Positions 1,848-50,256 of a stretch of 64,000 nt of DNA are shown one piece after another. How positions within the stretch are numbered: position 1 is the stretch's first letter; each line of letters begins with the position of its first letter. Origin of the DNA: Actinomycetota bacterium (lineage in GTDB: Bacteria; Actinomycetota; CADDZG01; JAHWKV01); assembly GCA_019347715.1 (NCBI GenBank), contig JAHWKU010000011.1, positions 1-64,000 on the forward strand. Reading direction: 5' to 3'. Under the pieces are notes generated by a model, which was not told the DNA's origin, did no database searches, and saw only the letters and a list, made by a program, of their open reading frames with translations. The position numbers and the translations under genes are program-made.

Positions 1848-3624
1848 GTCGGAGAGCAATCGCAGCCTGCAACAGTGCGGCGTGAGTAAGTGCCTGAGGG
1901 AAATTGCCACGATGTTCCTTCGTGGAAGGATCCATCTGTTCGCCGTATAGAGAAACGTCATTTCCGAGCGAGCACAGCTGATCGAACAGATCGTGAGCCT
2001 CCTCCCGTTGACCCGTATCGGCGAGAGCCCGCACAAGCCAGAACGAGCATGCGAGAAAAGCAGAATCCTTACCCTCGAAGGCGTCGTCGCCGGGATCGTA
2101 GCGATAGAGCAAGGGGCCTCCGGCAGCGAGTTCCTCACGAATGGCTTTGATCGTATTGCCCACCCGTTCTGAATCGTGTTCGAAACCAAGCGTCGGCAGG
2201 ATAAGGTTCGCGGCATCCAATCCATCAGAGCCGTACTTTCTTATGTAGGCCCCCTTGTCGTGGTCAAATCCTCGGCTTCGTACCTCTGAGGCGATGGCAT
2301 CGCGGTTCGCCTTCCATCTCTCAACTCTCGAGGGTCTGGTGCGGTGATTTTGCGAAATCCATATAGCACAGTCGAGGCCATTCCAAGCCATCAGCTTGGA
2401 ATGAACGTAGTGCTCACGGGGGCCACGAACTTCCCAGATGCCGTTGTCGGGCTTCTGCCAGTTGCGGCAAATGTAGTCGGCGAACGCCGAAAACCCACGC
2501 CACTTGGGCTTGTCGAGAGGAAGCCCGGATTTCACGATGAGTCCTGCGGCACGCAGTACCCATCCGTAAACGTCCAGTTGCACCTGGTCGGCTGCGGCGT
2601 TGCCGATCCTCACGGGAAGACTGCTGCGATGCCCTCCGATGTCTTCCAGCTCGATTTCCTGGAGGTTCGGTGTTCCATCGAGGGTGTAGACGACTCTCAT
2701 TTGGGGCCGCGTGGTTCGGCTTGCTATGACCAGCCATCGCAGGAACGACTCGGCTTCGATTTGTTTCTTAGAGTGCTCCACTTCTAGGAAGGCCTCGACT
2801 CCCATGCTGGCATCCCTCGGCCAGGAAAATCGATAGTCCCAGTTCCTAGATCCGCCGATCTCGATGGGTAGAGAAGTTGTGGGAGCTGCAACCGGCGCGC
2901 CCGACGGAGAATAGGTGAGCAAACGAAGAGTGACGAGACTCCGTAATACCGATTCTCGGTGAGGGCCTTCGTAGCCGACGGTTGACGACCAGTTTCTCCA
3001 CCAGCGGTCGGAGTCCTCGAGCCGATTCACCGCCGATAGCGGGTCTATGAAGACAAGGGGCGCCTGATGTGCAGCAAGCATGCAAAAGGAAAATGAAGAT
3101 CCCTCGTCTAACACGAGCGTTAACTCTTGATCAGGTACTAGGTCGATGGATGGGGCGGATGCGATGGAAACCGCGAGGGATCCCCATTCACAAACCAGAG
3201 ATCCCCTGCTATTCCTCGAGCGGACCGGTTTCTTGCCGGGAAGGCCGGCTCGCGGATCGAACTTCACGCGGATTTGATTCCGGCCACGGGTTGACGAAAC
3301 AGTGCGGACGAGAGCGAACTCTGGAAGCAGCGCTGAGCTCACATCCAGCACGAGCCCTTCGGTTAACGTAACCGACCCAGAGCTCGTCTCCCAGGCTGTT
3401 TCGAGGATGGCGGAGCCTTGGCGATAGCGGCGCTCGGTTGACCTAATGCCTTCCGGAGTGATTTGAAATGACCCCCCTGTCTCTTCATCAACCAGACGGG
3501 AGAAGATTGGAGGGGAATCAAATCTCGGTAGACAAAGCCAGTCGATGGAGCCAGATTTGGAGCAAAGGGCGGCGGTGCGTGTATCACCGATCAATGCATA
3601 GTCATCGATGGGGGGTTGAGTCAT
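1834..3624 (-). CDS. Glycoside hydrolase family 15 protein (glucoamylase/trehalase type)
   Basis: 596 residues. An N-terminal beta-sandwich (about 1-220, beginning with the family motif DYALIGDTRTAAL) is followed by an (alpha/alpha)6 barrel. The barrel has the signature WDYRFSWPRDA (262-272), the probable general acid Glu398 in GIWEVRG and general base Glu562 in GEQMDP followed by GNFPQALTH. No signal peptide is seen, so it should act in the cytoplasm on an alpha-glucan, maltodextrin or trehalose; bacterial members include trehalases. The start overlaps the stop of the upstream Sec-AhpD gene (ATGA), so the two are translationally coupled and share the SigR-type promoter near 4206-4231. Confidence 0.9.
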   Translation of the reverse strand: MTQPPIDDYALIGDTRTAALCSKSGSIDWLCLPRFDSPPIFSRLVDEETGGSFQITPEGIRSTERRYRQGSAILETAWETSSGSVTLTEGLVLDVSSALLPEFALVRTVSSTRGRNQIRVKFDPRAGLPGKKPVRSRNSRGSLVCEWGSLAVSIASAPSIDLVPDQELTLVLDEGSSFSFCMLAAHQAPLVFIDPLSAVNRLEDSDRWWRNWSSTVGYEGPHRESVLRSLVTLRLLTYSPSGAPVAAPTTSLPIEIGGSRNWDYRFSWPRDASMGVEAFLEVEHSKKQIEAESFLRWLVIASRTTRPQMRVVYTLDGTPNLQEIELEDIGGHRSSLPVRIGNAAADQVQLDVYGWVLRAAGLIVKSGLPLDKPKWRGFSAFADYICRNWQKPDNGIWEVRGPREHYVHSKLMAWNGLDCAIWISQNHRTRPSRVERWKANRDAIASEVRSRGFDHDKGAYIRKYGSDGLDAANLILPTLGFEHDSERVGNTIKAIREELAAGGPLLYRYDPGDDAFEGKDSAFLACSFWLVRALADTGQREEAHDLFDQLCSLGNDVSLYGEQMDPSTKEHRGNFPQALTHAALLQAAIALRPNED

Positions 3625-4175
3625 TCCAAATTAAGAAGCTGACTCGCGAGACCGCGGAGCGGGTAGGAACGGGCCTCTCGTACTTCCGCAGGCCAGTTTG
3701 CCTCTAGTTCGACTCCAAGGCCATCCGCCACACGGTTCACGTAGTTGAAATAGGACACGACTTGGTTTGCATCGACAATGTCGCGATCAGAGAGGCCGAG
3801 TTTCCGCATCGGGTCAAGATCAGCCTCCCTCATGGCCCATGGCGAAACCGTCAACTTGAGCGCATATCTGCAGAGTGCTTGCATCCGTTGGGGGAGCAGA
3901 TTGAATCTTCCGGAAGCGACCGCCTCCGCCAGCTCCGGCTGACCCGACTCATTCGAGAGGGCCGTCCCGTGCTGAACTACTCAGTAGTGACAATCGTTAG
4001 CTGCGGAAACACAGACGGCGATCGCCTCACGTTCGGACCGGCTCAGCCCTGAATCTCCGAACATGATCGTCCGGTAAAGGGAAACGTGGGCCCGAAGCGC
4101 CTCACGATTAAGGCTGTGGCACTTCAGGATATGCGCGCCGACACCTATGTCGGCTGCTGTTTCTACCCAAGTCAT
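3621..4175 (-). CDS. AhpD-like peroxidase-related selenoprotein (Sec65)
   Basis: Read through one in-frame TGA (3981-3983), this is a complete 184-residue member of the carboxymuconolactone decarboxylase/AhpD-like, peroxidase-related family. The N-terminal helices lead to SAANDCHY-U-VVQHG, where the family normally has CHYC followed by a His; Cys62 and Sec65 would form the redox pair. After the TGA the frame continues through the conserved ALCRYALKLT and DANQVVSYFNYVNRVADGLG blocks to a normal stop. No base is missing or extra, and the ribosome site (AAGGAGG) is excellent. The expected role is reduction of hydroperoxides or other thiol/selenol redox chemistry in the cytoplasm. A SigR-type promoter lies just upstream and GH15 is coupled downstream. 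Alternatives are a nonsense mutation or sequencing error. Confidence 0.85.
3941..3963 (-). promoter_or_regulatory. Possible SECIS stem-loop of the AhpD-like gene
   Basis: Beginning 18 nt after the TGA, the transcript can pair GGCCC with GGGUC and, inside that, CUC with GAG around a GAAU loop. This lies within the usual distance of a bacterial SECIS but lacks the clear GU loop of the other four. A shorter GGG/CCC hairpin at +13 to +22 is an alternative. This is the weakest of the five SECIS calls. Confidence 0.35.
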
Positions 4176-4205
4176 CTTTGCCTCCTTGTCTCATTGATCC
4201 TTAGG

Positions 4206-4231
4206 AACCCGGCATTCACTGCTGTCATTCC
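4206..4231 (-). promoter_or_regulatory. SigR-type promoter for Sec-AhpD and GH15
   Basis: On the minus strand GGAAT (4231-4227), a 16-base spacer and GGGTT (4210-4206). This matches the Streptomyces SigR consensus GGAAT-N18/19-GTT and the other copies in this window. Transcription would start near 4199, about 24 bases before the ATG and just ahead of its ribosome site. Confidence 0.75.
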
Positions 4232-4267
4232 ATCAGTTGAACCCTCTTACCTGTGTAGAGTTCCAGC

Positions 4268-5128
4268 ATGAACGCTCCAGATTTCAAGCCGGACCCCACA
4301 CTATTTCCTTTCGAGTCAAAGTGGTTCGAGAGCAGCGTCGGAAGGATCCATTACATCGACGAAGGCAGTGGTACACCGATCATCCTGTTCCACGGTCAGC
4401 CGACATGGAGCTTTCTCTATAGAAAGATCGTGGAGAGGCTCGCTGACGGGTTCCGATGCATTGCGCCCGATTATCCGGGCTTCGGATTGTCAGTCCGTCC
4501 AGCTGAATACCAATACACGCCAGCGGAACACGCCACAGTGATCGGAGAACTGGTGGACGCTCTGGAACTCGACGGCTTCCTGATCATGGGGCAGGACTGG
4601 GGAGGACCGATCGGCCTATCGATTGCAGGGGATCGATCAGAACAGGTGAAGGGCTTGGTTCTAGGCAACACCTGGTTCTGGCCGGTGTCCCTTAGCGCAC
4701 GGATATTCAGCACGATTATGTCGACAGGGTTCATGCAGCACCAGATCGTCGAGAAGAACTTCTTCGTCGAAAAGATCATGCCCTTCGCCATGAAAAAAAA
4801 GCTGACTGAAGATGAGTTCGATCATTACCGAAAGGCGCAGCCGACCCCTGAGCTTCGAACGGGACTAGGCGAGTTCCCTAGACAACTTACTCGCTCGGAG
4901 TCCTTCCTCGAGAATCTCGAGAAAAGGGTGTTATCACAGCTTGCATCGAAGCCGACCTTGCTGACATGGGGAATGGGGGATATGGCGTTTAGACCTCGCC
5001 AATATATTCCGCAGTTGCGGATGCGGATGCCCCAAGCAGAAGTGGTGGAGCTACGGCGTGCCAAGCATTACATCCAGGAGGACGCACCGGACGAAATCGC
5101 GGGAGCCATTCGAGGAAAGTTCGGGTAG
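4268..5128 (+). CDS. Haloalkane dehalogenase-like alpha/beta hydrolase
   Basis: 286 residues of alpha/beta-hydrolase fold. The oxyanion-loop motif HGQPTWSF (42-49), nucleophile Asp110 in GQDWGG, a cap domain (about 140-205) and the C-terminal catalytic His in AKHYIQED are the pattern of haloalkane dehalogenases, where the nucleophile is Asp followed by a halide-binding Trp. The second halide ligand position is Gln instead of the usual Asn, so the natural substrate is uncertain. Members hydrolyse carbon-halogen bonds to alcohols in the cytoplasm. It diverges from Sec-AhpD over a 92-base intergenic region. Confidence 0.8.
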   Translation: MNAPDFKPDPTLFPFESKWFESSVGRIHYIDEGSGTPIILFHGQPTWSFLYRKIVERLADGFRCIAPDYPGFGLSVRPAEYQYTPAEHATVIGELVDALELDGFLIMGQDWGGPIGLSIAGDRSEQVKGLVLGNTWFWPVSLSARIFSTIMSTGFMQHQIVEKNFFVEKIMPFAMKKKLTEDEFDHYRKAQPTPELRTGLGEFPRQLTRSESFLENLEKRVLSQLASKPTLLTWGMGDMAFRPRQYIPQLRMRMPQAEVVELRRAKHYIQEDAPDEIAGAIRGKFG

Positions 5129-5143
5129 GAGCAGGATGATTTC

Positions 5144-5857
5144 TCAACCGTGATCGTGGTGATGTGAATCACGGACCTCTTCGAGGGCCTTGTCGAGATC
5201 TTCCTTCAACACTACGCCGATGAGAACGCCCTCTGATGTCGTAACCGGAGCAGTGTCGAGGTCGTGTTGCTTCATGAACTCGGTCATCTCCGGGGCAGAA
5301 ACGTTCGGCCGGAAGGTAGATGGTCCGGGCTTCATGATCGACTCAACCGTGGCTTCTGGATCCGAGTCCAGCTGCGATTTGTAGAGGCGTCCCAGCACTA
5401 CTTTTTCGTCGTTGACGACAATGGCTGTGTTCCATCCGTCTGTTTCCACTCGAGCTTTTACCTCTTCCAATCGTTCCTGCAATCCCGCAACAGGCACATC
5501 CTTGCGCGACACTTCTCCGATCGTTGGGACCTTTGCGAGTGTCCCTTCGGTGGGGAGCCCCGACGCTGCCCAGTCGGCAAGCCCGTTCGCGTACTCGTAG
5601 ACGTTCTTGAAACCAAGATCTTCGAGCCGCCACGCGGCTCGTGGGCTCATGTCTCACTGGGTATCCCAACAGTAGGTGATGACCGGGCTCTCGCGGTCGA
5701 GCTCCTTTAGCGCTCTCGAATCGATCTCCTTCAATGGAATGCTGACGGCACCGGGAAGGTGCTGCTCTTCGTACTCCTGCTTCGGTAAGACGTCGACTAT
5801 CTGGGCACCCTCCTGGATCAGCTTCTGTACTTCATCTCGATCGATCACTTTCGGCAT
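5144..5857 (-). CDS. Rhodanese-CBS domain selenoprotein (Sec68)
   Basis: Read through an in-frame TGA (5654-5656), the gene gives 237 residues. A rhodanese-like domain (1 to about 105) contains VITYCWDTQ-U-DMSPRAAW, where relatives have Cys at the U position. It is followed by two CBS motifs (about 118-160 and 170-228) and a His-rich tail HHHDHG. Frame and homology are continuous across the TGA, and the ribosome site GGGAGG precedes the ATG. Rhodaneses move sulfane sulfur, while CBS pairs often bind adenosyl ligands. It is the last gene of the sigR-rsrA-like operon (18-base gap from the Cys-rich gene), which places it in thiol-stress defence. A perfect 8-bp stem-loop follows the TGA. Confidence 0.85.
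5623..5641 (-). promoter_or_regulatory. SECIS-like stem-loop of the rhodanese-CBS gene
   Basis: Starting 13 nt after the TGA, the transcript reads CGAGCCGC-GUG-GCGGCUCG, a perfect 8-bp stem with a three-base GU-containing loop. Spacing and loop agree with bacterial SECIS elements. Confidence 0.7.
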
Positions 5858-5875
5858 CTGACCTCCCTAATCTCC

Positions 5876-6085
5876 TCAGTAGTCGTCAAACGGCGCGGGA
5901 GAAACTTTCTGCATAGGCCGTGGTCCATGCTCCGGGCAGCACTCCTTGTCGAAGCCGGTTTCAATAAGGTCGCGTGGTAAGAGCCAAGAACAACCCTCGC
6001 AGTAACAGTCGCCGAACCTGATCCATCGGGCGTCGGGGATGTCTGCTCCCCGTCTTACAGCCTGTTCGCAACATTCACATCTCAT
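5876..6085 (-). CDS. Small cysteine-rich protein, probable metal binder
   Basis: 69 residues with eight Cys: CECC near the start, CYCEGC in the middle and ECCPEHG near the end. The spacing suggests a zinc-ribbon or iron-sulfur fold. I do not recognise a named family. It sits between the anti-sigma gene (15-base gap) and Sec-rhodanese (18-base gap) on the same strand, so it should be co-expressed under thiol stress, perhaps as a thiol or zinc buffer. Confidence 0.65.
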   Translation of the reverse strand: MRCECCEQAVRRGADIPDARWIRFGDCYCEGCSWLLPRDLIETGFDKECCPEHGPRPMQKVSPAPFDDY

Positions 6086-6100
6086 CGGAACCGTCCCGTC

Positions 6101-6391
6101 TCAACCGAGTTCGATTTCGTCTCCATCCTCCCGTTCTCCGAGACTCTGTGCGAATTGGGAGAGCCGCGAGATCGCCTGCTGGTCCAGGGGGCCGAGTTGC
6201 TGAAGCGAATTCTTAAGACGTTTGTAGGTCTCGAACTCAAGCCCGCATCGTCTGCACATCTCCAGGTGAGCAGCCACTCTTCGAGCCGTCACATCGTCAC
6301 GCATTTCGCCGTCGATGTAGGACTGAAGGTGCTTCATGACCTCAGCGCAGGTCGCGGTGTCACTCGTAGTTTTGGCTCGCTTGAACCTCAT
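6101..6391 (-). CDS. rsrA: RsrA-type zinc-binding redox anti-sigma factor
   Basis: 96 residues with the ZAS pattern: Cys15, His42, Cys46 and Cys49 (HLEMCRRC). These correspond to the zinc and redox-switch residues of Streptomyces RsrA. Known members release their sigma factor when disulfide stress oxidises the cysteines and expels zinc. The start codon overlaps the stop of the sigma gene (ATGA), the usual arrangement. The RsrA assignment rests on the residue pattern, the partner gene and the promoter motif around it. Confidence 0.8.
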   Translation of the reverse strand: MRFKRAKTTSDTATCAEVMKHLQSYIDGEMRDDVTARRVAAHLEMCRRCGLEFETYKRLKNSLQQLGPLDQQAISRLSQFAQSLGEREDGDEIELG

Positions 6392-6939
6392 ACCTGTCCC
6401 CCCTCGACAAAGAGTTCTTCTGATTTCAGCCCTTCTCGAATCCTGGTTCTTCCCCGGTGCAGCCGGCTCATCACCGTACCGACCGGCACTCCGAGACGCG
6501 CCGCCGCTTCCGCGTAGCTCATGCCACTTATGTCAACGAGGGCCACCACCTCTCGAAACTTCCCGGGCAGTTCTTCGAAAGCAGCCGCCACCGCCCCATC
6601 GAAAGCCTGATCGACCACCTGGAACTCGGGGCTATCCCGATGGTCTGACACGCTCTCGGGATTGCCGGATTCATCGACGTCTGAAACAGGAAGCGGCACT
6701 TTCTTGCGGACCTGATTGGCAAGGGCGTTGCGAAGAATGGTGAGAAGCCAAGCTCTCGGATGGCGTCCGTCGAATCGTTCGATGGCACGAAAGGCTCTCA
6801 GCAGAGTCTCCTGAACGAGATCCTCGGCGTTCTCGGGCTTTCCGGTCATGGCCAGCGCCACGCGATAAAGGAGCTCCAGCTCGGGAACCACGTATTTATC
6901 GAAGCTTGCCTTGCGGCTCCGTTTACTCAACTTGGTCAT
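6388..6939 (-). CDS. sigR: SigR/SigH-like ECF sigma factor (thiol stress)
   Basis: 183 residues with region 2 (DLVQETLLRAFRAIERF and the AWLLTILRN helix) and region 4 (ELPGKFREVVALVDISGMSYAEAAARLGVPVGTVMSRLHRGR). Group identity with SigR/SigH is inferred from the coupled RsrA-like anti-sigma gene and from a SigR-type motif at its own promoter, implying autoregulation. The ATG at 6939 is chosen over a GTG at 6963 because it lies 9 bases after the -10 element, which fits a leaderless transcript; the GTG would lie inside the promoter spacer. Confidence 0.85.
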   Translation of the reverse strand: MTKLSKRSRKASFDKYVVPELELLYRVALAMTGKPENAEDLVQETLLRAFRAIERFDGRHPRAWLLTILRNALANQVRKKVPLPVSDVDESGNPESVSDHRDSPEFQVVDQAFDGAVAAAFEELPGKFREVVALVDISGMSYAEAAARLGVPVGTVMSRLHRGRTRIREGLKSEELFVEGGQV

Positions 6940-6948
6940 CGCGCTGGA

Positions 6949-6974
6949 AACCCCATCGAGCACGAGGATATTCC
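6949..6974 (-). promoter_or_regulatory. SigR-type promoter of the sigR-rsrA operon (autoregulatory)
   Basis: GGAAT (6974-6970), 16 bases, GGGTT (6953-6949). The sigma factor start codon follows 9 bases later, so the mRNA is probably leaderless. Confidence 0.75.
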
Positions 6975-7006
6975 GATTCGAGTCGTTAGAAGATTGTTTG
7001 GTGTCG

Positions 7007-7033
7007 GGAATGAATGAACCCAGGCCGCGGGTT
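7007..7033 (+). promoter_or_regulatory. SigR-type promoter of the lone zinc-finger gene
   Basis: GGAAT (7007-7011), 17 bases, GGGTT (7029-7033). It is divergent from the sigR promoter. The ATG at 7043 follows 9 bases after the -10, again leaderless. Confidence 0.65.
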
Positions 7034-7042
7034 TTCGTTTAC

Positions 7043-7297
7043 ATGACCTTCACTCACACTCAGGCAAGCCGATTTCTGGACGCCCTGGTTGACCAAGAGC
7101 TGGACGAATTGACCAGAGAAGCGTTTTCCTCCCACGTGGACGAGTGCCAGGATTGTCATCGCGCCTTTCTCCTCACCTGTCGAATCAAGAATTCGCTTGC
7201 CAAGCTGGCTGCGCTGACGGAGCCGGGGCTGGAAGCTTGGATTGGGACAGAAAGAAGAAGATCGTGGAAGAGGCGCGTGCCGTTTCGTCACGGCTGA
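7043..7297 (+). CDS. Second zinc-finger anti-sigma-like protein
   Basis: 84 residues with an N-terminal zinc-finger of anti-sigma type: VDQELD, then His31-x3-Cys35-x2-Cys38 (HVDECQDC), then a helical part and a basic tail (RRRSWKRRVPFRHG). It lacks the upstream Cys seen in the RsrA-like partner. It is divergent from sigR and has its own SigR-type promoter, suggesting a feedback regulator of the same or another sigma factor. The ATG at 7043 fits the promoter; an in-frame ATG at 7010 would overlap the -35 element. Confidence 0.7.
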   Translation: MTFTHTQASRFLDALVDQELDELTREAFSSHVDECQDCHRAFLLTCRIKNSLAKLAALTEPGLEAWIGTERRRSWKRRVPFRHG

Positions 7298-7301
7298 TTG
7301 A

Positions 7302-8495
7302 CTAACGGATGATCTTGGTATCGAGCAGGAATGCCGCCCATGCGAACCAGAAAGTATCCACGTGCTCGATCGGTTGAAGCTTCTCGCCGCGCTTCGGTCC
7401 AGCCACCGCATTTCCCAAAATGTCCCACTTGGTGCCGGTCAGGGAGTCGACGAATAATCCTCCTTGCGACATGAACTTCGAAGCTCTTCGGTCTACCGAA
7501 GCCTTGAAGACCCCCGTCTCACCTACGTCCTTGCCCTCGGGAATCTCGGAGGTGTCGAGGGCGGAGGCCGTCCCCGGGCGGGCAAACACTACGATCGATT
7601 GACCTGCCAGCTCTAAGTGCATCACTTTCTTCTTAATCAGAGTGTCGAGCACAACGGCGGCACTCTGTTCCTCCACTCGAATGCCGACCACCCGAGTCAT
7701 CGCCGGCATCCTTCCGTCGGTTTCACCCTCGAAGAGAAACGGCCTCTTCTCACGGTCGTCATATCCAACGTACGGGTTACGGCCGTAGTCCCGATCGAAC
7801 CCCGTGTTCTTGCTGAGAACCCACCCGTCCGGATTCGCGTTTCTCCAACTAGCCCACGACACGGTGCTGAGCGGATGTATTTCAAGGGTAGTTCCCGTCA
7901 ATCTGCCGGCGATGGCCTTGCCTTCGAACTGGCTCCAAAGCGATTCGGTCTGCCGGTCGTACATCACGAGAGCGGAGTTGTATAGCTTCCCCGAGGTTCC
8001 GAAGTCGACGATCCTCTCGCCGACGCGGCGATCGAAAGCGGTAGCCGAATTGCACAGAGGGCAGTAGGTCACCGTTACCGGCACCTTTCCCACGGTGTCG
8101 TTCACTATCTCGTGCCAGGTAAGGATCTGAGTAGGGTATGCCCTGTTTTCGCCCCCGAGTTCCAACGCCACGACGGGCTCTCTGTCCTTTAGCCACTCGA
8201 CTTCAGAGGTCCGGTTGAACTTTGGGCGATCGATCGGAGGAATCCCGTCGGGGGGAGGACCGCCCGGGATGATCTTCGATGGATCGACAAGCGGCTCTGG
8301 GAGGTCTGGACCGGAAGGGTCCTGGAGGGCGGAAGGGCCGTTCTCTTTCGGGCTCGAAGCTGCTTGAGGAAGTTCGACATCTCGCGCCTCCGGCGACTTC
8401 CCAGGGGTGGACACTCTGGAACACGAGGCGGCGAACAGAACGAAAAGAATCAGAGAAGCCGTGAGACGCGGCTGCCTTCCAATTTGCAGAGTCAC
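7302..8495 (-). CDS. DUF3179 domain lipoprotein
   Basis: 397 residues. The N-terminal signal peptide ends in a lipobox (LFAASC), followed by a Pro/Ser-rich linker (about 28-95) and a DUF3179 domain with the conserved blocks YPTQILTWHEIVNDTVG, VTYCPLCNSATAFDR and DFGTSGKLYNSALVMYD. The role of this exported family is not defined, but the CPLC pair suits the redox setting. The GTG start overlaps the upstream SRPBCC stop (GTGA), so the two are coupled and share a SigR-type promoter. Confidence 0.85.
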   Translation of the reverse strand: MTLQIGRQPRLTASLILFVLFAASCSRVSTPGKSPEARDVELPQAASSPKENGPSALQDPSGPDLPEPLVDPSKIIPGGPPPDGIPPIDRPKFNRTSEVEWLKDREPVVALELGGENRAYPTQILTWHEIVNDTVGKVPVTVTYCPLCNSATAFDRRVGERIVDFGTSGKLYNSALVMYDRQTESLWSQFEGKAIAGRLTGTTLEIHPLSTVSWASWRNANPDGWVLSKNTGFDRDYGRNPYVGYDDREKRPFLFEGETDGRMPAMTRVVGIRVEEQSAAVVLDTLIKKKVMHLELAGQSIVVFARPGTASALDTSEIPEGKDVGETGVFKASVDRRASKFMSQGGLFVDSLTGTKWDILGNAVAGPKRGEKLQPIEHVDTFWFAWAAFLLDTKIIR

Positions 8496-8830
8496 CTGTT
8501 AGGAGACCGAGCTTTTGGCGGGTGGATCTTGCTGCGGCTCGCCCTCTGGTACCTGAGCTCAGAGTTATCGCCTCGGGGAACGACTTCGATCTCTTCCTCA
8601 ACAAACGGCAGCGGACCCTCGAGCCAGCGGTACTTGATCATGGGGGGGTCTAGCACGACGAGCTCTACGGTTCGCACTTTCTTGCCGGCTGCTTCGAGCT
8701 CGAACTCGACTGTCTTTTCCCCATCGCGAGATTCCAGTGTCTTCCCGGCCGAGGAGACAACCTCATAAGGCAGGGGTGCCGGAGCCCTGACCGCCAACTG
8801 CTGACTCTTGAGCTCTCTAGGCCGACGCAT
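8492..8830 (-). CDS. Short SRPBCC (START-like) protein
   Basis: 112 residues that match the first two thirds of a polyketide-cyclase/START-like fold (VRAPAPLPYEVVSSAGKT, then LDPPMIKYRWLEGPLPFVEE). The usual last strand and long C-terminal helix are missing; after LRYQ the sequence becomes a basic, Pro-rich end. This could be an old frameshift near 8540 or a genuinely short form. It is coupled to DUF3179 by a GTGA overlap. The start at ATG 8830 has a GGGAGG ribosome site that can be sequestered in a hairpin. Confidence 0.6.
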   Translation of the reverse strand: MRRPRELKSQQLAVRAPAPLPYEVVSSAGKTLESRDGEKTVEFELEAAGKKVRTVELVVLDPPMIKYRWLEGPLPFVEEEIEVVPRGDNSELRYQRASRSKIHPPKARSPNR

Positions 8831-8831
8831 C

Positions 8832-8845
8832 GGAGGTACGCCTCC
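8832..8845 (-). promoter_or_regulatory. Hairpin covering the ribosome site of the SRPBCC gene
   Basis: GGAGG-CGTA-CCTCC lies immediately before the ATG. The 5-bp stem would hide the Shine-Dalgarno sequence, so it may dampen translation of this operon. Confidence 0.4.
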
Positions 8846-8871
8846 CTTCCCTGGGCAGGTTTCGTTAAGGG

Positions 8872-8897
8872 AACCCGAGTCCTCCTCCCAAAATTCC
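8872..8897 (-). promoter_or_regulatory. SigR-type promoter of the SRPBCC-DUF3179 operon
   Basis: GGAAT (8897-8893), 16 bases, GGGTT (8876-8872), giving a leader of roughly 35 bases. It is divergent from the next promoter. Confidence 0.75.
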
Positions 8898-8918
8898 CCA
8901 CAGTTAATGGGCAAGCCG

Positions 8919-8944
8919 GGAATGAAGAGCCGGTCTGGCGGGTT
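8919..8944 (+). promoter_or_regulatory. SigR-type promoter of the Tat lipoprotein gene
   Basis: GGAAT (8919-8923), 16 bases, GGGTT (8940-8944). Transcription would start about 50 bases before the GTG at 9001. Confidence 0.7.
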
Positions 8945-9000
8945 TGGGGGACAACTTCGTTTCGAGCCAAGTGGCGCCGTGCGCCAGGAGGGAGGCCAAG

Positions 9001-9282
9001 GTGGAAGACATCCAATCCCCGCGGGTGAACCGAAGGCAGTTTCTTGGTAAGGCGGCCCGCGCCTCGCTCCTGACCTTATCGCTTCCGGCCCTGCTGGAAG
9101 CCTGCACTACGGATCGTGGGGACCTGCGAACCCGGACCACTTTTACCCCTGACAGTTTCAAGGAGAAAACTAAGGCCATACAAGCACAGGCCGAAAAGCT
9201 AGTTGGCGACGTTCTCGATTTTCAGCTCACCTCCGACGACTGGGAGGGAGTATTCGGGTTCGCCAAGTTCTTCATGAAATGA
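9001..9282 (+). CDS. Tat-exported lipoprotein, probably truncated
   Basis: 93 residues. A twin-arginine signal (NRRQFLGKAA, Arg11-Arg12), hydrophobic core and lipobox (LLEAC, Cys35) precede a short acidic domain ending DWEGVFGFAKFFMK. The GTG at 9001 has a strong ribosome site (GGAGGGAGG). The last residues run antisense over a DoxX fragment, and the domain stops abruptly, so the 3' part of the gene seems to have been lost in a deletion. Function unknown. Confidence 0.65.
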   Translation: MEDIQSPRVNRRQFLGKAARASLLTLSLPALLEACTTDRGDLRTRTTFTPDSFKEKTKAIQAQAEKLVGDVLDFQLTSDDWEGVFGFAKFFMK

Positions 9283-9410
9283 CTCATCCGATTCTGCTTC
9301 TCGCCGGGATCTTCAATCTTCCAGAAATCGTGCATGTAGAGAGCTGTTGGAATGAGAAACACGACTAGGAACAGCGCGCCCAGATCTCCCCAAACCCCGA
9401 GAAGCACCAT
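9222..9410 (-). pseudogene. Remnant of a DoxX-family membrane protein gene
   Basis: The minus strand encodes a recognisable DoxX segment: LLGVWGDLGALFLVVFLIPTA, then HDFWKIEDPGEKQNRMSHFMKNLA. The N-terminal helices (replaced upstream by the end of the 9430-9888 gene) and the last helix (replaced after KNLA by sequence antisense to the Tat lipoprotein) are both missing. Two gene remnants are therefore joined tail to tail near 9265-9280. Confidence 0.65.
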
Positions 9411-9429
9411 AAGCCCTGACTCCCTTCGC

Positions 9430-9888
9430 TCATTTCATCATTTGGTAGGCGATCGTGGTCGCGGTGGCGTAGACCGCGTGATGAAAGGCATCGATAGCAA
9501 GGGCTTCTTTTCCCCATTCCTTTACGGGAGGCGTAACCCCCAAGGCAGGCTGCATCACGAGCGCGTTACCCCACACCGCGGCAAAGTGGGTGGCCGTACC
9601 CGTCAGGCCGTTTAAGCCCAAAGCGCCGAGCATGGCCCTGGGGATTCCCCAGGTGGTTCCGTAGGCGAAATGGACGAGATTCGAGAAGCGAACCTTCTCC
9701 TCTTTGCCGCGTGGCTGAACCCCTAGGACCTTCCCGGCGGCGTCACCCGGAACCGTGCTGGGCTTTCGTCCTCTGAGCTTCATCTCGAGAGTGCTCGAAA
9801 TCGTCATCGCTAGGGTTCCCACCAGACCGGCGATGATTCCCCTGCCCAGTTGGGTAGCGAGACGATCGAACTTCCTACTGTGCTCCAT
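9430..9888 (-). CDS. Membrane protein of unknown function
   Basis: 152 residues with about four helices (15-33, 77-95, 98-117, 132-149) and a basic cytoplasmic loop (KLRGRKPSTVPGDAAGKVLG). It resembles YagU/DUF1440-like small membrane proteins in layout, but I do not assign the family. It follows tlpA (stop at 9940) on the same strand with a 51-base gap, so it probably belongs to that SigR-controlled transcript. Confidence 0.6.
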   Translation of the reverse strand: MEHSRKFDRLATQLGRGIIAGLVGTLAMTISSTLEMKLRGRKPSTVPGDAAGKVLGVQPRGKEEKVRFSNLVHFAYGTTWGIPRAMLGALGLNGLTGTATHFAAVWGNALVMQPALGVTPPVKEWGKEALAIDAFHHAVYATATTIAYQMMK

Positions 9889-9939
9889 GTAACTGCCTTT
9901 CTGATCTAGCGAGATACATCCATTTAAGAATCTGCCCGG

Positions 9940-10506
9940 TCAAACGTCGTACAAATCGGCGAGTCTTTTGCGGAGCGCCGGCTCGGACAAGGCCCCCGAG
10001 GCCACATCGAGCACCTCTCCTTTCTCGTTATAGAAAGCAGTAAGAGGCATGCCGAACCCTCCAAGAGCTTGGTGGAGGTCGTTTTCCGCAGCACCTATAT
10101 CCTTAGCCAGTGGCCAGTGATCGATCTCGAACCGACGCGCCATCTCGAGGCCCCGACCTCCATCCTGGGTATTTACACCCACAAAGATGATTCGCCCTTC
10201 TAGTTCCTTGGAGATCGCGGAGAAATGGGGGAGTTCGAACTCACAAGGGCCGCACCAGGACGCGAAGAAGTTCAAGACCACCGGTTCTCCCCGAAAATCC
10301 TGCAGCCGGACCCTTCCCTCGGAGCCGAGTGCCGGCAGGTCCCAGTTTTTGGTATCCGAGGAGCCGTCTTGCCCACCGCTATCCGATGCGATGAACAACA
10401 CTCCGAGCAAGGCCACCACGGCGAGTAGGATCCCTGCGTTGACCCAGCGGGATCGCTCGCCTCTAACCTTCCTTTCAATCAGGGCGCGCTCCATCCGATC
10501 ACTCAC
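9940..10506 (-). CDS. TlpA/ResA-like membrane-anchored thioredoxin
   Basis: 188 residues: a short basic N-terminus, one membrane anchor (about 20-38), then a TlpA-like thioredoxin domain with active site FFASWCGPCEFELPH and the cis-Pro region FGMPLTAF. It should face outward and reduce disulfides of exported or heme-maturation proteins. The open frame extends to 10863, but that part is antisense to the Sec-TlpA gene. The GTG at 10506 is chosen because it lies 8 bases after the -10 element (leaderless); an ATG at 10494 is the alternative. Confidence 0.85.
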   Translation of the reverse strand: MSDRMERALIERKVRGERSRWVNAGILLAVVALLGVLFIASDSGGQDGSSDTKNWDLPALGSEGRVRLQDFRGEPVVLNFFASWCGPCEFELPHFSAISKELEGRIIFVGVNTQDGGRGLEMARRFEIDHWPLAKDIGAAENDLHQALGGFGMPLTAFYNEKGEVLDVASGALSEPALRKRLADLYDV

Positions 10507-10514
10507 GTATCGGA

Positions 10515-10540
10515 AACCCCGACCGAAGCACGCTAATTCC
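10515..10540 (-). promoter_or_regulatory. SigR-type promoter of tlpA
   Basis: GGAAT (10540-10536), 16 bases, GGGTT (10519-10515). The GTG start codon follows after 8 bases. Confidence 0.75.
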
Positions 10541-10571
10541 GCGGGCGATGCCCTGGCGGGCGATGAAAGTT

Positions 10572-10597
10572 GGAATACCCCCGGATTAAAGCGGGTT
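10572..10597 (+). promoter_or_regulatory. SigR-type promoter of the Sec-TlpA gene
   Basis: GGAAT (10572-10576), 16 bases, GGGTT (10593-10597). The ATG at 10607 follows after 9 bases, implying a leaderless message. It is divergent from the tlpA promoter. Confidence 0.75.
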
Positions 10598-10606
10598 CCG
10601 TGAACA

Positions 10607-11605
10607 ATGCTGATCCACTTGGGTGAGGGCGACACGGCAGTAGAGGCTCCAGCAGAGGACGGGCTTTGGGTCCCCCTCGACATCGTTGCTGCGGCCTTGG
10701 AGCTAGAGGTCCGAGACCTCGAAGAGGAATCGATCGGATTCTGCCCGAGCGATGACATCTGTGTCCCGGTTCCGCAGTCCGCACTGACGACCCAGAAGGG
10801 CGTCACGGCGATCCGGCTCCAAGATCTGGCCGCCTCCCTTGGGCTGGCGATCGCATCAGACACGGATCACGCCGTGGTACTGACCGGCGCCGTTAGAACC
10901 GTCTCTTTCGCACAGCTCGGCGCACCGCTCGTAGCCCAGCTTCCCAACGTTCACACCGGTGAAGTCGAGCCGCTCGGGCATCCCGGCAAAAAGACAGCGA
11001 TCTTCGCTTGGGCCTCTTGGTGAACCTGCCGGCATCAGCTGCCCGGGTGGCAGCAACTTCATGAGGAGTTCGGCGACAGCATCGGATTTACGAACGTAGC
11101 CGTAGATTTCCAAGGAGCGGAAGTCGCCCGGCCCTGGGTCGAAGCAGCCGAGATAACGTTTCGCTCCCTGGTGGACCGGCAGGGAGACCTGCTCAAGTTG
11201 ATGGGTCTGACTTTTGTGCCCATAGCGGCCTTTCTCGATGCTAAAGGAGACCTGGTCGAACCCCCAACTCCCATCGACATTCGCCAGCCCCAGATGCGGG
11301 AGGCCATCGTCGCCTGGGCCGATGGAGAGCAGGATAGTCCCGGTTTCGTTCATGACGCGCGCCGAGCGGACTCCGCGACTGCCTATGTAGAGGCCAGGGC
11401 CTTCGTACGGCTGGCCAATCTCGCGATCGCCGATGGACGAAAGAGCGACTCGGCCTCCCACCTAAAAGAAGCGTTGAAAAGAGACCCCGAGAATTGGCTC
11501 ATACGAAAGCAGATCTGGGCCATAGAGCACCCTGCGCGCTTCTATCAGGGCGACATCGATCTCGAGTGGCAGAAGGAGCAAATCGACCAAGGAGGACGAG
11601 GTTGA
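10607..11605 (+). CDS. TlpA-like redoxin selenoprotein (Sec139)
   Basis: Reading through the TGA at 11021-11023 gives 332 residues. An N-terminal domain (1 to about 115) with CPSDDICVP precedes a redoxin domain whose active site is FAWASW-U-TCRHQLPGW, and a C-terminal helical tail (about 255-325, including DPENWLIRKQIWAIEHP). Relatives have Cys where U is; Sec139 and Cys141 would be the redox pair. The frame is unbroken and homology continues without gap. A paralog with the same architecture and the same TGA is at 25086-26138. No signal peptide is evident. A GU-loop stem follows the TGA and a SigR-type promoter precedes the gene. Confidence 0.88.
11038..11054 (+). promoter_or_regulatory. SECIS-like stem-loop of the Sec-TlpA gene
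   Basis: Fifteen nt after the TGA: GCUGCC-CGGGU-GGCAGC, a 6-bp stem with a CGGGU loop. The paralog at 25763-25779 has the same loop and the same spacing with a different but still paired outer base pair (G-C against C-G). Confidence 0.75.
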
Positions 11606-11663
11606 GGACTCCGGTCACCAAACGACACAGTGAAACCTGCCTAATCCGTACTCGACTACCCTT

Positions 11664-12191
11664 CTAGCGAACGGGAATCCCGCCCGCCGCGATCTCGGGC
11701 TCAAGAGCTCTCGAGCGAACTCCTGCCAACCCTAACCACGCCCCGAGAGTTGCTCCATACAAAACATGCTCGATCGAGAAAGTCGGCCACCCGACCATCG
11801 TCGGCATGTCGCCTTGCCCGATGATGGGCAGGGCAATGAAGCTCATGAATGCCATGACCGCGAGCCCGTAGATCGCTCCCAGAAGGATCAAGCTCGCTCC
11901 GCCGATACGGATTCGACTAACCAGCAACGCAAACAAGACCCCCCATCCGATGGCTGTAACCATATGGATCATCATGCCGAGCGCGGCGGGTCCGGCGGAG
12001 AAGTAAAAGGTGCCGCCATCCATCGAAGACTTCATCTCCTCTGGCCCGATGAGGAAGGCCGCGATGTGATACATGGGGGTGAAGAACCCGGTCCCTAGAT
12101 AGGTTGCTCCCGCGATCATGGCGAACATGGCCATGACGATCCCGCCGACAAGCCCCCCCACGATTCCGCGGGTAATAGTTGATCGTTCCAT
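11664..12191 (-). CDS. Four-helix membrane protein, SigR regulon member
   Basis: 175 residues with four to five hydrophobic helices (about 8-30, 65-88, 95-117, 120-140, 148-165), Gly- and Met-rich, and a polar C-terminus. No catalytic motif is visible. The ribosome site (AAAGGAGG) before the ATG is excellent and a SigR-type promoter lies about 30 bases upstream, back-to-back with the thioredoxin promoter. Function unknown. Confidence 0.65.
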   Translation of the reverse strand: MERSTITRGIVGGLVGGIVMAMFAMIAGATYLGTGFFTPMYHIAAFLIGPEEMKSSMDGGTFYFSAGPAALGMMIHMVTAIGWGVLFALLVSRIRIGGASLILLGAIYGLAVMAFMSFIALPIIGQGDMPTMVGWPTFSIEHVLYGATLGAWLGLAGVRSRALEPEIAAGGIPVR

Positions 12192-12220
12192 AACGACCTC
12201 CTTTGCCGTATTGGCCTGGA

Positions 12221-12246
12221 AACCCGACTTCGCCTCCAGCTATTCC
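12221..12246 (-). promoter_or_regulatory. SigR-type promoter of the 11664-12191 gene
   Basis: GGAAT (12246-12242), 16 bases, GGGTT (12225-12221). Its -35 element is half of a 20-bp palindrome. Confidence 0.75.
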
Positions 12247-12257
12247 GCGGAATAGCT
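12238..12257. repeat. 20-bp perfect palindrome formed by two back-to-back -35 elements
   Basis: AGCTATTCCGCGGAATAGCT is perfectly self-complementary. It contains the GGAAT of both divergent SigR-type promoters, separated by CG, so one sigma binding locus serves the membrane protein and thioredoxin. Confidence 0.8.
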
Positions 12258-12275
12258 ATAGGGGCTAAATGGGTT
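12249..12275 (+). promoter_or_regulatory. SigR-type promoter of thioredoxin
   Basis: GGAAT (12249-12253), 17 bases, GGGTT (12271-12275). The leader to the ATG at 12334 would be about 50 bases. Confidence 0.7.
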
Positions 12276-12306
12276 TCCTTGTGAAAAGCGATCACGAAGG
12301 GAGGAA

Positions 12307-12325
12307 GGGCACCTTGCTGGTGCCC
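12307..12325 (+). promoter_or_regulatory. Leader hairpin upstream of thioredoxin
   Basis: GGGCACC-TTGCT-GGTGCCC, a perfect 7-bp stem placed between a purine-rich AGGGAGGAAGGG tract and the ATG. Folding would bring that tract nearer the start codon, or shield it. Confidence 0.4.
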
Positions 12326-12333
12326 GAAAGAAA

Positions 12334-12678
12334 ATGGGAACTACGCGAAAGGTCACTGACGGTGACTTCGAAAATCAGGTGCTGAGCTCGGAGAGACCAG
12401 TACTGGTGGACTTCTATGCCGACTGGTGCGGACCGTGCCACATGGTAGCTCCAGAGGTGGAGGCGATTGCCGATGAGATGAATGACCGTCTCAAGGTTGT
12501 GAAGCTGGATATAGATGCCAACCCCAAAACGGCTGAGAGATTCGGCGTAATGTCGATCCCGACGCTCGTGCTCTTCAGCGGTGGAGGAAATGAGGAGTTG
12601 AGGATCATAGGAGCACGCCACCGAGACGACCTGCGGAAGGAAATTGAACCAAAGCTATCCGCAGGCGCGACCGGGTGA
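12334..12678 (+). CDS. trxA: Thioredoxin
   Basis: 114 residues, full length for thioredoxin, with active site ADWCGPC at about 30-36 and the cis-Pro loop MSIPTLVLF. A cytoplasmic disulfide reductant. The SigR-type promoter upstream matches the known control of thioredoxin genes by SigR in Streptomyces. No thioredoxin reductase gene is in the window. Confidence 0.93.
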   Translation: MGTTRKVTDGDFENQVLSSERPVLVDFYADWCGPCHMVAPEVEAIADEMNDRLKVVKLDIDANPKTAERFGVMSIPTLVLFSGGGNEELRIIGARHRDDLRKEIEPKLSAGATG

Positions 12679-12708
12679 AAGATTGATTAACTCTGAAGGA
12701 GTAAGCGA

Positions 12709-12966
12709 GTGGGGATATTGAGCCGATCGAAAACCTGCGTTCATTACAGCGGCGAGAGCGCGGCCCCGCGCGCGAAGGCTTGCGAAGGGTGTGGGAGCAC
12801 CTTCAATTTGAGGGTCTGCACCGAATGCGGCCATGTCGGGTGTTGCGAGTCGCAGCAGGCTCACAATACGCAGCACTCCCGACAGGCTGGCCATCCTGTC
12901 ATTAAGTCCTTGCCACTAGGTAAGGGCTCCTTCACGTGGTGCTACGAGTGCCGAGCATACGTCTAG
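12709..12966 (+). CDS. UBP-type zinc finger protein
   Basis: 85 residues with the ZnF-UBP pattern: CEGCGSTFNLRVCTECGHVGCC, then HNTQHSRQAGHPV, then FTWCYECRAYV. Bacterial stand-alone copies exist but their role is unclear. The GTG at 12709 has a good ribosome site (GAAGGAG). It lies 30 bases after thioredoxin and is probably on the same transcript. Confidence 0.85.
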   Translation: MGILSRSKTCVHYSGESAAPRAKACEGCGSTFNLRVCTECGHVGCCESQQAHNTQHSRQAGHPVIKSLPLGKGSFTWCYECRAYV

Positions 12967-13716
12967 TCAAACTAAACGGAATCCAGGCCGCAGGCCCTGG
13001 ATCGTCGCCAGGTAGAAGAAGTAAGCAGCGATCCCAAGAAGAAAGAACGATGTGAGGCGTTGGGAGATACGAAGAGCGCGCGGGCTAACTTTCCATCCAC
13101 TCATGACGAACCAGACCAGACCCACGAGGAAGCCGGCATGCCCGATGCCGAAGGCGAGCATGACAAGGGCGCTGTAGATGGTGTTTCCGAATGTTGCCGC
13201 TGATGCCGCCACACCGATCACCACCCCGGCGCATGCAGGACAGTTCACCAATCCTGCCGGGATTCCGGCAAGGAAAGCGCCAAGAGCGGTGAGGTTTCTC
13301 CTTGTCGGCATCGCGCAGGCAGCACAGAAGGACGACGGCGTCAGCAGCAGGAACAGTGCGAATCCAGATATGAGAATCCCGAGTGTCAGATAGCCAATTC
13401 CCGAATAGGGCCTGAGAATCGATTCGGTGAGGTTATCTATTCGACTGGCGACGACTCCCACAGCGGTATACACCACTACCATTCCGGCTCCGAAAGCCGC
13501 GGCCACCTTGACTGCGCCGCCCCGCGCGGCCAGTGCCCCGGCACTTCCGAACCCGATAAAAGTGCCGAGTATCGGAAGCGCGGCGGGGTTCGCGCTCAAA
13601 AGCGCGCCCATGATTACCGCCACCGGGATCCCGAGCCACCAAGTGCTCTCGATCAGGCTAAAAGGATCAATGTCGCACCTCCGCCGAGTTCGTCCCTTAG
13701 GAGAACCCGAAAACAT
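12967..13716 (-). CDS. CcdA/DsbD-like membrane protein with cysteine pairs
   Basis: About 249 residues with six to seven membrane helices. Two Cys pairs (FCAACAMP and VNCPACAG) and a Pro/Gly-rich layout suggest a CcdA/DsbD-type carrier of electrons or metal across the membrane. The start is uncertain. ATG 13716 has an AAAGGAA site, but a SigR-type promoter (13704-13729) overlaps it; if that is used, translation would begin lower, for example at an ATT (13671) behind GGAGGTG or at a GTG further in. It is divergent from the HMA gene. Confidence 0.7.
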   Translation of the reverse strand: MFSGSPKGRTRRRCDIDPFSLIESTWWLGIPVAVIMGALLSANPAALPILGTFIGFGSAGALAARGGAVKVAAAFGAGMVVVYTAVGVVASRIDNLTESILRPYSGIGYLTLGILISGFALFLLLTPSSFCAACAMPTRRNLTALGAFLAGIPAGLVNCPACAGVVIGVAASAATFGNTIYSALVMLAFGIGHAGFLVGLVWFVMSGWKVSPRALRISQRLTSFFLLGIAAYFFYLATIQGLRPGFRLV

Positions 13717-13729
13717 CGAATTCAATTCC
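13704..13729 (-). promoter_or_regulatory. SigR-type promoter motif of the CcdA/DsbD-like gene
   Basis: GGAAT (13729-13725), 16 bases, GGGTT (13708-13704). It coincides with the longest plausible start codon, so either the gene starts further down or this copy is not used. Confidence 0.5.
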
Positions 13730-13752
13730 TTTGAGACTCCAAGGTTTAATCT
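13721..13752 (+). promoter_or_regulatory. MerR-type promoter/operator of the HMA-CcdA operon
   Basis: TTCAAT (13721-13726), 20-base spacer, TAATCT (13747-13752). The spacer holds the near-palindrome CCTTTGAGACTCCAAGG (13728-13744). An over-long spacer with a central dyad is the hallmark of MerR-activated promoters, and the CTCCAAGGT half is shared with the promoter at 14905-14936. Confidence 0.4.
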
Positions 13753-13758
13753 ATCTGC

Positions 13759-13977
13759 ATGAATTTGAAGACAGTCGAGCTTTCGGCGGACATGAATTGC
13801 CGGGCTTGTCAGTACCGGATTACCGGAGCCCTGAAACAACAGGATGGGGTCAAGTCCAATAAGGCGGACTTCCGGACCCAGAAAGTAACCATTGAGTTCG
13901 ATCCGTCACAGATAGACGAGACCGAACTCCGCCAAGTTATCGACAACGCCCTTAACCACGGCCTCTCGCTCGAGTAG
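13759..13977 (+). CDS. Heavy-metal-associated (HMA) domain protein
   Basis: 72 residues forming one HMA ferredoxin-like domain with metal site MNCRACQYRI at 12-21. It is a MerP/CopZ-like soluble carrier, probably for copper given the P1B ATPase nearby. Six bases separate it from the Sec-CcdA gene, indicating one operon. Confidence 0.88.
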   Translation: MNLKTVELSADMNCRACQYRITGALKQQDGVKSNKADFRTQKVTIEFDPSQIDETELRQVIDNALNHGLSLE

Positions 13978-13983
13978 CGCTTC

Positions 13984-50202: not shown

Positions 50203-50256
50203 GGCGTCCCTTCTGTTAGATTCGCCCACAGAAGCAAGCGATATGCGGAGGCTACC

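Follow-up and report, generated by a model that had tools for sequence, protein, structure and literature searches.

A predicted selenocysteine-containing rhodanese–CBS protein in the operon of an extracytoplasmic-function sigma factor and a zinc anti-sigma factor

We analysed the first 64 kb (hereafter the window) of contig C2 (JAHWKU010000011.1) of an Actinomycetota draft genome (GCA_019347715.1; 2.43 Mb in 55 contigs, ~90% complete). Pfam matches and open reading frame (ORF) coordinates place four genes on its minus strand in the order extracytoplasmic-function (ECF) sigma factor, zinc anti-sigma (ZAS) factor, small cysteine-rich ORF and rhodanese–CBS protein, the last with an in-frame TGA codon. 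That this TGA encodes selenocysteine (Sec) is well supported by the sequence comparisons described below. In our view, the four genes probably form the control operon of a small and mostly local thiol-redox regulon, a reading to which we assign a probability of about 0.6. The sequence statistics that speak for it are the operon order, the Sec codon with its hairpin, the promoter cluster and the presence of the promoter across most of the clade to which the sigma factor belongs; the parts that we infer are the sensing, the sigma–promoter pairing and the chemistry.

The operon and the surrounding promoters

The layout of the operon is that described in an earlier note made from the sequence alone, with the same coordinates: the start of the anti-sigma gene overlaps the stop of the sigma gene (ATGA), 15 bases separate the anti-sigma gene from the Cys-rich ORF and 18 bases separate the latter from the rhodanese–CBS gene (Table 1). 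The Cys-rich protein gave no match in Pfam and NCBIfam scans. After the rhodanese gene there is no further minus-strand gene before a convergent haloalkane-dehalogenase-like gene (4268–5128, below its family cut-off), which ends 15 bases away. The sigma ATG sits 9 bases past the −10 element of the predicted operon promoter, and the sigma mRNA is likely to be leaderless, beginning at this ATG. A start at GTG 6963, which would give a longer ORF, was rejected owing to its position upstream of the −10 element. On the other strand, a variant promoter with one extra spacer base diverges from the sigma promoter and is followed after 9 bases by the ATG of a second ZAS-like protein. By eye its ligands are HHCC (His5, His31, Cys35 and Cys38), and it could act as a further brake on the sigma factor. 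Rfam at gathering scores and ARAGORN returned no RNA family match and no tRNA, respectively, in the window; no repeats of at least 30 bases were found in 1–27000 and no sigma-70-type promoter in 3500–14000.

Table 1. Features of the operon, the promoter cluster and the other predicted selenoprotein genes.
Feature	Position	Strand	Details
ECF sigma factor	6939–6388	minus	ATG start; 183 aa; Pfam Sigma70_r2, r4_2
Zinc anti-sigma (ZAS) factor	6391–6101	minus	96 aa; zf-HC2 33.7 bits (Pfam)
Small Cys-rich ORF	6085–5876	minus	69 aa, 8 Cys
Rhodanese–CBS gene	5857–5144	minus	237 aa if TGA 5656–5654 is Sec; Pfam Rhodanese and CBS
UGA read as Sec68	5654–5656	minus	in rhodanese–CBS gene
Bacterial SECIS-type hairpin	5623–5641	minus	stem 5641–5634/5630–5623; loop GUG 5633–5631
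Predicted operon promoter	6949–6974	minus	GGAAT (6974–6970)-N15-GGGGTT (6954–6949); motif match
Variant promoter	7007–7033	plus	GGAAT-N16-CGGGTT
Second ZAS-like protein	7043–7297	plus	84 aa; zf-HC2 25.9 bits on longer ORF
AhpD-like selenoprotein, CxxU	3621–4175	minus	UGA 3983–3981; promoter 4231–4206; TIGR01926 143.8 bits, cut-off 81.8
Small protein without Pfam match, then DUF3179	8830–8492, 8495–7302	minus	promoter 8897–8872
Tat-signal-like small protein (by eye)	8971–9282	plus	103 aa; promoter 8919–8944; GTG 26 bases after −10
TlpA-like thioredoxin, then ORF without Pfam match	10506–9940, 9888–9430	minus	GTG start at 10506; promoter 10540–10515
Redoxin selenoprotein, WASWUTC	10607–11605	plus	UGA 11021–11023; ATG 9 bases after promoter 10572–10597
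Membrane-type protein (by eye)	11664–12191	minus	promoter 12246–12221; no family match
CcdA/DsbD-like membrane protein	12967–13623	minus	218 aa; promoter 13729–13704; true start uncertain
CcdA/DsbD-like selenoprotein (by eye)	13984–14832	plus	UGA 14551–14553
Redoxin selenoprotein, WAxxUGC	25086–26138	minus	UGA 25796–25794; NF041054 514 bits, cut-off 300

The operon promoter belongs to a dense local group. The window contains ten copies of the motif GGAAT-N18-GTT, whereas 100 shuffles gave 1.7 on average and at most 8; genome-wide there are 62 copies, with 21 for the reversed control. Its strict form, GGAAT-N15-SGGGTT, has 11 sites genome-wide compared with one for the reversed control, and eight of the 11 fall inside 4206–13729, the 9.5 kb around the operon; for the looser motif the clustering has a Poisson probability of 1.4e-10. 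Motifs of this type are already known, the Corynebacterium glutamicum SigH consensus being given as GGAAT-N18-19-GTT (PMC10012870), and it is the clustering that stands out here. The genes behind the sites are listed in Table 1. The AhpD-like gene overlaps a downstream GH15-type gene (3624–1834), which lies behind the same predicted promoter. For the Tat-signal-like protein the ORF from 8944 is without a Pfam match, and the redoxin at 10607–11605 reaches 136 bits with NF041054, below the cut-off of 300. The start of the CcdA/DsbD-like protein at 12967–13623 is that of the longest frame beginning within 140 bases of the −10 element, and its DsbD_TM score of 28.4 bits (cut-off 27.1) was obtained with the ORF from 13719. 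At four of nine sites (sigma, second ZAS, redoxin and TlpA) 8 or 9 bases separate the −10 element from the start codon, as expected for leaderless mRNAs.

The earlier note had described the promoter as SigR-type and the anti-sigma factor as RsrA-like, and each description holds in part. GGAAT-N18-GTT is indeed present at 6974–6949 before the operon, and the anti-sigma protein has both a zf-HC2 match and, by eye, CHCC zinc ligands (Cys15, His42, Cys46 and Cys49), an arrangement tied to oxidative release in work on RsrA (PMC4960319). However, the pair cannot be assigned to SigR/RsrA: it falls far below both family cut-offs (110.1 of 251.55 bits for TIGR02947 and 30.6 of 62.5 bits for TIGR03988) and forms part of a separate clade. 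A pair on contig C33 of the same genome is closer to SigR/RsrA, with 240.7 of 251.55 bits (just below) and 77.9 of 62.5 bits (above). A maximum-likelihood tree was built from a selection of sigma rows, several of which are near-copies; the broken sigma of G002 (L188) was excluded. In it the window sigma groups with full support with those of G005, Pseudonocardia sp. N23, G052, G056 and G028, a group to which neither the C33 sigma nor any other SigR-like row belongs. On this tree the window sigma belongs to a sister clade of SigR and is not SigR itself. The best match for the sigma factor in the Protein Data Bank (PDB) is M. tuberculosis SigH (1.6e-26), and the anti-sigma protein matches RsrA there only at an E value of 0.17.

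Of the other five members of the clade, four (G005, Pseudonocardia sp. N23, G056 and G028) have the strict motif before the sigma gene, and in each of these the longest frame begins 8 bases after it. Within 250 bases upstream of ten SigR-like rows it was not found, and one loose match was. G002 has the strict motif upstream of a run of TlpA-like, sigma and anti-sigma genes, the sigma being in two pieces. Strict sites in relatives within the family lie before a pyridine nucleotide-disulfide oxidoreductase (L199) and a glucose-6-phosphate dehydrogenase (L198), and may be read there either by SigR or by a sigma of the window type; other strict sites in these relatives head no obvious gene. The window sigma very probably reads GGAAT-N15-SGGGTT promoters.

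Taken together, the operon may work as follows. The CHCC zinc anti-sigma factor would hold the ECF sigma factor until, by analogy with RsrA, oxidation or an electrophile drives formation of a disulfide in the anti-sigma protein, which would expel zinc and free the sigma. The freed sigma would read the promoter of its own operon, giving a positive loop together with more anti-sigma factor as a brake, and would also drive the nearby TlpA- and CcdA-like carriers, the AhpD-like selenoprotein, the Sec redoxin, DUF3179 and others. In the rhodanese domain, Cys63 would most likely take up persulfide sulfur and Sec68 would attack it, with the sulfide released or the sulfur passed on; the resulting selenenylsulfide could then be reduced by the co-induced thiol carriers. 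The CBS pair may couple rhodanese activity to adenine nucleotides. The suggestion in the earlier note that the Sec-rhodanese handles reactive sulfur is plausible. Its other suggestion, that selenium status is linked to the stress response, is one for which we find no mechanism in cis. With the UGA confined to the final gene, a shortage of selenium cannot act on the sigma or anti-sigma genes by polarity; selenium can affect only the output of the regulon (rhodanese, AhpD-like protein and redoxin), and a direct link from selenium status to release of the sigma factor is unsupported.

Selenocysteine in the rhodanese–CBS protein and its neighbours

The protein consists of a rhodanese domain (residues ~1–105; PF00581, 67.7 bits compared with a cut-off of 22.2), which carries the motif Cys63-x4-Sec68, and a CBS pair (~113–235). 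Pfam gives one CBS match, and the predicted model superposes on CBS pairs. This AlphaFold2 model (pLDDT, the predicted local distance difference test score, 94.5) has the rhodanese domain followed by the CBS pair; the closest solved structures are BH2092 for the rhodanese part and, for the remainder, CBS pairs including nucleotide-bound AcuB. The protein reaches the cut-off of none of the NCBIfam models tested. Identity with TsoB (NF045694) was considered and rejected, the score being 42.9 bits compared with a cut-off of 805 and covering residues 3–123 only.

We read the TGA as Sec because the genome has the machinery for it, the codon is conserved and the genes share a hairpin with a compensatory change; the proposal of the earlier note on this point is borne out. 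The machinery comprises tRNA-Sec (84.2 bits), SelB (335), SelA (510) and SelD (388). The SelA and SelB genes adjoin, and SelD lies on a contig other than that of the window (C28:6232–7164) with one in-frame TGA within the match, so that it is probably a selenoprotein itself. When 61 genomes were searched with the full protein, 24 further matches scored above 170 bits (one is truncated at a contig end), and every one has TGA at the aligned site; Cys63 is invariant across the 25-row alignment. The homologue ranked next, at 93.5 bits, encodes Ser at the site, with no stop. A second Sec-rhodanese–CBS copy occurs in the same genome (C26:11118–11783, L050; 43% identity), near a GH15-type gene.

A wider comparison used the best 80 of 109 relatives (79 named loci) and counted only matches with an E value of 1e-15 or better covering query residues 60 to 80. 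The site is TGA in 70 of the 81 such matches and TGC in 11, proportions which are not a census since one of the two seed patterns had Cys at the Sec position. TGA versions occur in named Micromonospora, Pseudonocardia, Haloechinothrix and Rubrobacter records, and the TGC (Cys-type) versions in Streptomyces and several Acidobacteria records. Position 63 is also TGA in 11/81 matches, giving U-x4-U, and Ser in one (L111). Ten of the 11 U-x4-U records are titled Chloroflexi or Dehalococcoidia and one is titled Proteobacteria. We note such genes at L078, L081, L086, L088, L095, L102, L121, L126, L129 and L136; in them the single hairpin, downstream of both UGA codons, would be ~35 bases from the first and 20 from the second.

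The putative selenocysteine insertion sequence (SECIS) hairpin of the window gene has its loop beginning 20 nt after the UGA. We compared this region in 79 Sec and 11 Cys genes after removal of identical stretches. Among the Sec genes, 78 of 79 have an apical loop that starts 19 or 20 bases downstream of the UGA, compared with three of the 11 Cys genes. Relative to synonymous recoding, the hairpins are on average more stable in Sec genes (mean z −1.42) and hardly so in Cys genes (−0.16; Mann–Whitney p = 3.5e-4), and at most five of 100 recodings are as stable for 27/79 and 2/11 genes, respectively. Stem positions 14 to 19 are paired in every Sec gene. The stem pair 18–26 is C-G in 72 of them and U-A in seven, a compensatory change, and forms in 4/11 Cys genes; all eight stem pairs form in 50/79 Sec genes and in none of the Cys genes. 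Taken alone the window hairpin is modest, with 12 of 100 recodings as good and shuffles as good in 11/200, 10/200 and 0/60 cases. A conserved in-frame TGA, a SECIS-type hairpin and Sec machinery, as expected of a selenoprotein gene, are thus all found.

These observations bear directly on whether the TGA could simply end translation, with two separate short proteins being made. An in-frame ATG (5650) does follow the TGA, and some annotations divide the gene. Seven plasmid records contain a match. Among the four with a long match, two from Pseudonocardia annotate the two halves as two genes and one from Rubrobacter annotates the CBS half (gene table incomplete); the remaining records comprise two in which a rhodanese gene is annotated where the match spans less than half of the query, and two with no gene annotated at the match. 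However, a true stop would leave unexplained the conserved hairpin with its compensatory change, weaker in the Cys genes, the coding score that runs on past the TGA in a codon-usage scan and the replacement of TGA by TGC in the Cys versions, and we regard it as extremely improbable.

We also considered whether the rhodanese passes perselenide-bound selenium to selenophosphate synthesis instead of handling sulfur. Selenoprotein-rich surroundings and a full Sec machinery would suit such a role, but the Cys found at the site in Streptomyces and several Acidobacteria, and the location of SelD on another contig, argue against it; we consider selenium delivery very unlikely.

Besides the rhodanese, the first 26 kb of the window hold four further predicted selenoproteins: the AhpD-like CxxU protein, the redoxin with UxxC, a CcdA-like protein and the WAxxUGC redoxin. 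Three of the five genes have a sigma-type promoter upstream, if the rhodanese is included by virtue of the operon promoter. At the AhpD-like site TGA is present in three of four other covering matches and TGC in the fourth; the corresponding counts of TGA are 6/6 other matches for the first redoxin, among them the window's second redoxin, and 4/4 other covering matches for the CcdA-like protein. The latter has no Pfam or NCBIfam match, and no GGAAT-type sigma promoter was found before it; by eye, a five-pair stem with the loop GGUCU lies 19–23 bases after its UGA. The WAxxUGC redoxin lies outside the promoter cluster. The codon-usage scan of the whole window yielded ten TGAs, with both redoxins, the CcdA-like protein and the rhodanese among the top six and the AhpD TGA absent. 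Two other high-ranking candidates were rejected as selenoproteins: rank 2 (TGA 9942) is the end of the TlpA-like gene followed by another gene in frame, and rank 4 (TGA 50535) is largely antisense to a gene at 50110–51465.

Relatives of the operon and alternative readings

We surveyed the 5 kb around 90 distinct rhodanese sites, many of them on short contigs and with near-identical sites dropped. ECF sigma genes of any group occur at six of the 90, the window included, and an orthologous sigma at two, the window and G005. In G005 the order is different, the sigma gene lying 2.4 kb downstream of the rhodanese gene beyond a GH15-type gene. In Pseudonocardia sp. N23 (L134) the sigma gene is ~6 kb from the rhodanese gene on the opposite strand. 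The linkage is not general among relatives, and we rejected a conserved four-gene operon as the order was seen only in this genome.

Given this distribution, the Cys-rich and rhodanese genes may have landed behind the sigma gene by rearrangement and be co-transcribed with no role in sensing. The uniqueness of the four-gene order among the 90 sites, and the presence of other regulators beside the rhodanese elsewhere, would be consistent with such passengers. Against this, two further selenoproteins and several thiol-redox genes nearby have the same promoter, and the orthologous sigma of G005 is also within 3 kb of its rhodanese. We consider a passenger status less likely than a control operon, though it is the alternative that we take most seriously.

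Other neighbours recur more often than the sigma factor. Clusters of neighbouring genes, named from Pfam runs on single representatives in the case of ArsR, MerR, MerB and HMA, include ArsR-like genes, whose cluster of 16 sites also chains in antisense frames, as well as MerR (12), MerB (alkylmercury lyase; 8), HMA (7) and GH15-type genes (7) and a small VLHFDGCP protein without a Pfam match (10). MerB-type frames lie within 5 kb of the Sec-rhodanese–CBS gene at L066, L083, L087, L091, L124, L130, L134 and L137 (Pfam was run on two of the eight, L091 and L137), which suggests that the family is tied to organomercury or soft-metal stress. At L055 and L058 the start of the Sec-rhodanese overlaps, by eye, the end of a small ArsR-type-looking gene. 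DUF3179 genes also recur near Sec-rhodanese–CBS genes, in the window (7302–8495) and at L040, L041 and L085; at L085 the two are on one strand, with ~20 bases between the end of the DUF3179 match and the start of the rhodanese match.

The metal-type neighbours raise the question of whether the operon answers thiol damage caused by metals, with the Cys/Sec pair of the rhodanese binding or trading soft metals such as mercury and not persulfide. However, no mercury gene is recognized beside the window operon, and the neighbour clusters are found mostly in more distant members of the family; contig ends limit the view. For the operon described here we think a metal response improbable.

A Cys-rich ORF of one of two kinds accompanies the rhodanese at more sites than the sigma factor does. 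In L063 the rhodanese gene is followed by a homologue of the window's Cys-rich protein (8675–8881; 40% over 45 residues), and in L038, L039, L040, L065, L066, L067 and L069 (L039 and L067 being near-copies) by a different ORF with seven to nine Cys. This recurrence at eight other sites, together with the shared operon, would fit a feedback in which the two gene products, Sec-rhodanese and Cys-rich protein, act on the anti-sigma factor to reset or tune it, for instance by clearing persulfide off the cysteines that bind its zinc or by giving zinc back. Yet no orthologous sigma was found near those eight sites and no contact is evident from sequence; feedback from the rhodanese onto the anti-sigma factor is speculation, and in our estimate as improbable as the metal response. 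It is slightly less doubtful, although still unlikely, that a branch of ECF sigma factors took over local selenoproteins, so that its output became selenium-dependent, with the Sec-rhodanese and its Cys-rich partner acting back on the anti-sigma factor via persulfide, metal or zinc.

Several observations weigh against a control operon of a local thiol-redox regulon. The operon is not conserved, and in relatives the promoter was not found before the rhodanese genes or the other Sec genes; the coupling could thus be fortuitous or of recent origin. Before rhodanese genes elsewhere there is one loose promoter match in 91, with ~1.9 expected from the same loci, and at 15 loci of relatives of the other selenoproteins there is no promoter directly upstream, L219 having one loose match on the opposite strand. 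The recurring rhodanese neighbours elsewhere are metal-type genes. The clade sigma of G052 is without the strict motif, and the three strict sites outside the window are not promoter-like on inspection of their flanks; the regulon would therefore be small. The Cys63/Sec68 chemistry is putative, Cys63 being replaced in the 12 matches noted above. The presence of tRNA-Sec does not separate TGA from TGC genomes (14/18 and 8/11, respectively, for 29 chosen from the 79 loci). Finally, in an automatic search the hairpins of one redoxin and the CcdA-like protein are no better than shuffles (37 and 53 of 60 as good) and the other redoxin gives 10/60, compared with none for the rhodanese and two for the AhpD-like protein.

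Comparison with known systems

The rhodanese–CBS proteins, with C-x4-U and double-Sec U-x4-U forms, add a family to the selenoproteins. A 2026 review of prokaryotic selenoproteins (PMC13188914) tabulates rhodanese selenoproteins as forms 1–5; its main text contains neither of the terms CBS and CxxxxU, and CBS is likewise absent from the available part of a 2022 selenoprotein review. We found no open-licence paper joining rhodanese, selenocysteine and a CBS domain and, in the titles and beginnings of abstracts of the open-licence literature, no operon joining selenoproteins with a sigma/anti-sigma pair. The closest listed rhodanese selenoprotein is TsoB (form 5, UxxxxU), which shares the Sec rhodanese domain and the U-x4-U arrangement of the double-Sec versions, but the proteins described here have a CBS pair in place of the DsbD part and are mostly C-x4-U. 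In BH2092 (PDB entries 3nhv and 3o3w; 34–35% identity by fold) the C-x4-C loop ITYCWGPAC aligns with ITYCWDTQU of the window protein. It differs in having Cys for Sec, and its chains of 126–144 residues are too short for an added CBS pair.

At the level of gene organization, the SAO and Tso selenoprotein operons (PMC13188914) likewise have several clustered selenoprotein genes. No sigma factor is named for them in the available part of that review, whereas here several transcripts have a common sigma-type promoter. With selenoprotein genes behind a promoter of ECF-sigma type, the regulation of selenoproteins under oxidative stress becomes testable. The SigR/RsrA and SigH/RshA systems of Actinobacteria resemble the present one in having an ECF sigma and a CHCC anti-sigma factor in the same operon, a GGAAT...GTT promoter and thiol-redox targets. 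The window system differs from them in its separate sigma clade, in having eight of the 11 strict motifs of the genome beside the sigma gene and in the predicted selenoproteins among its putative targets.

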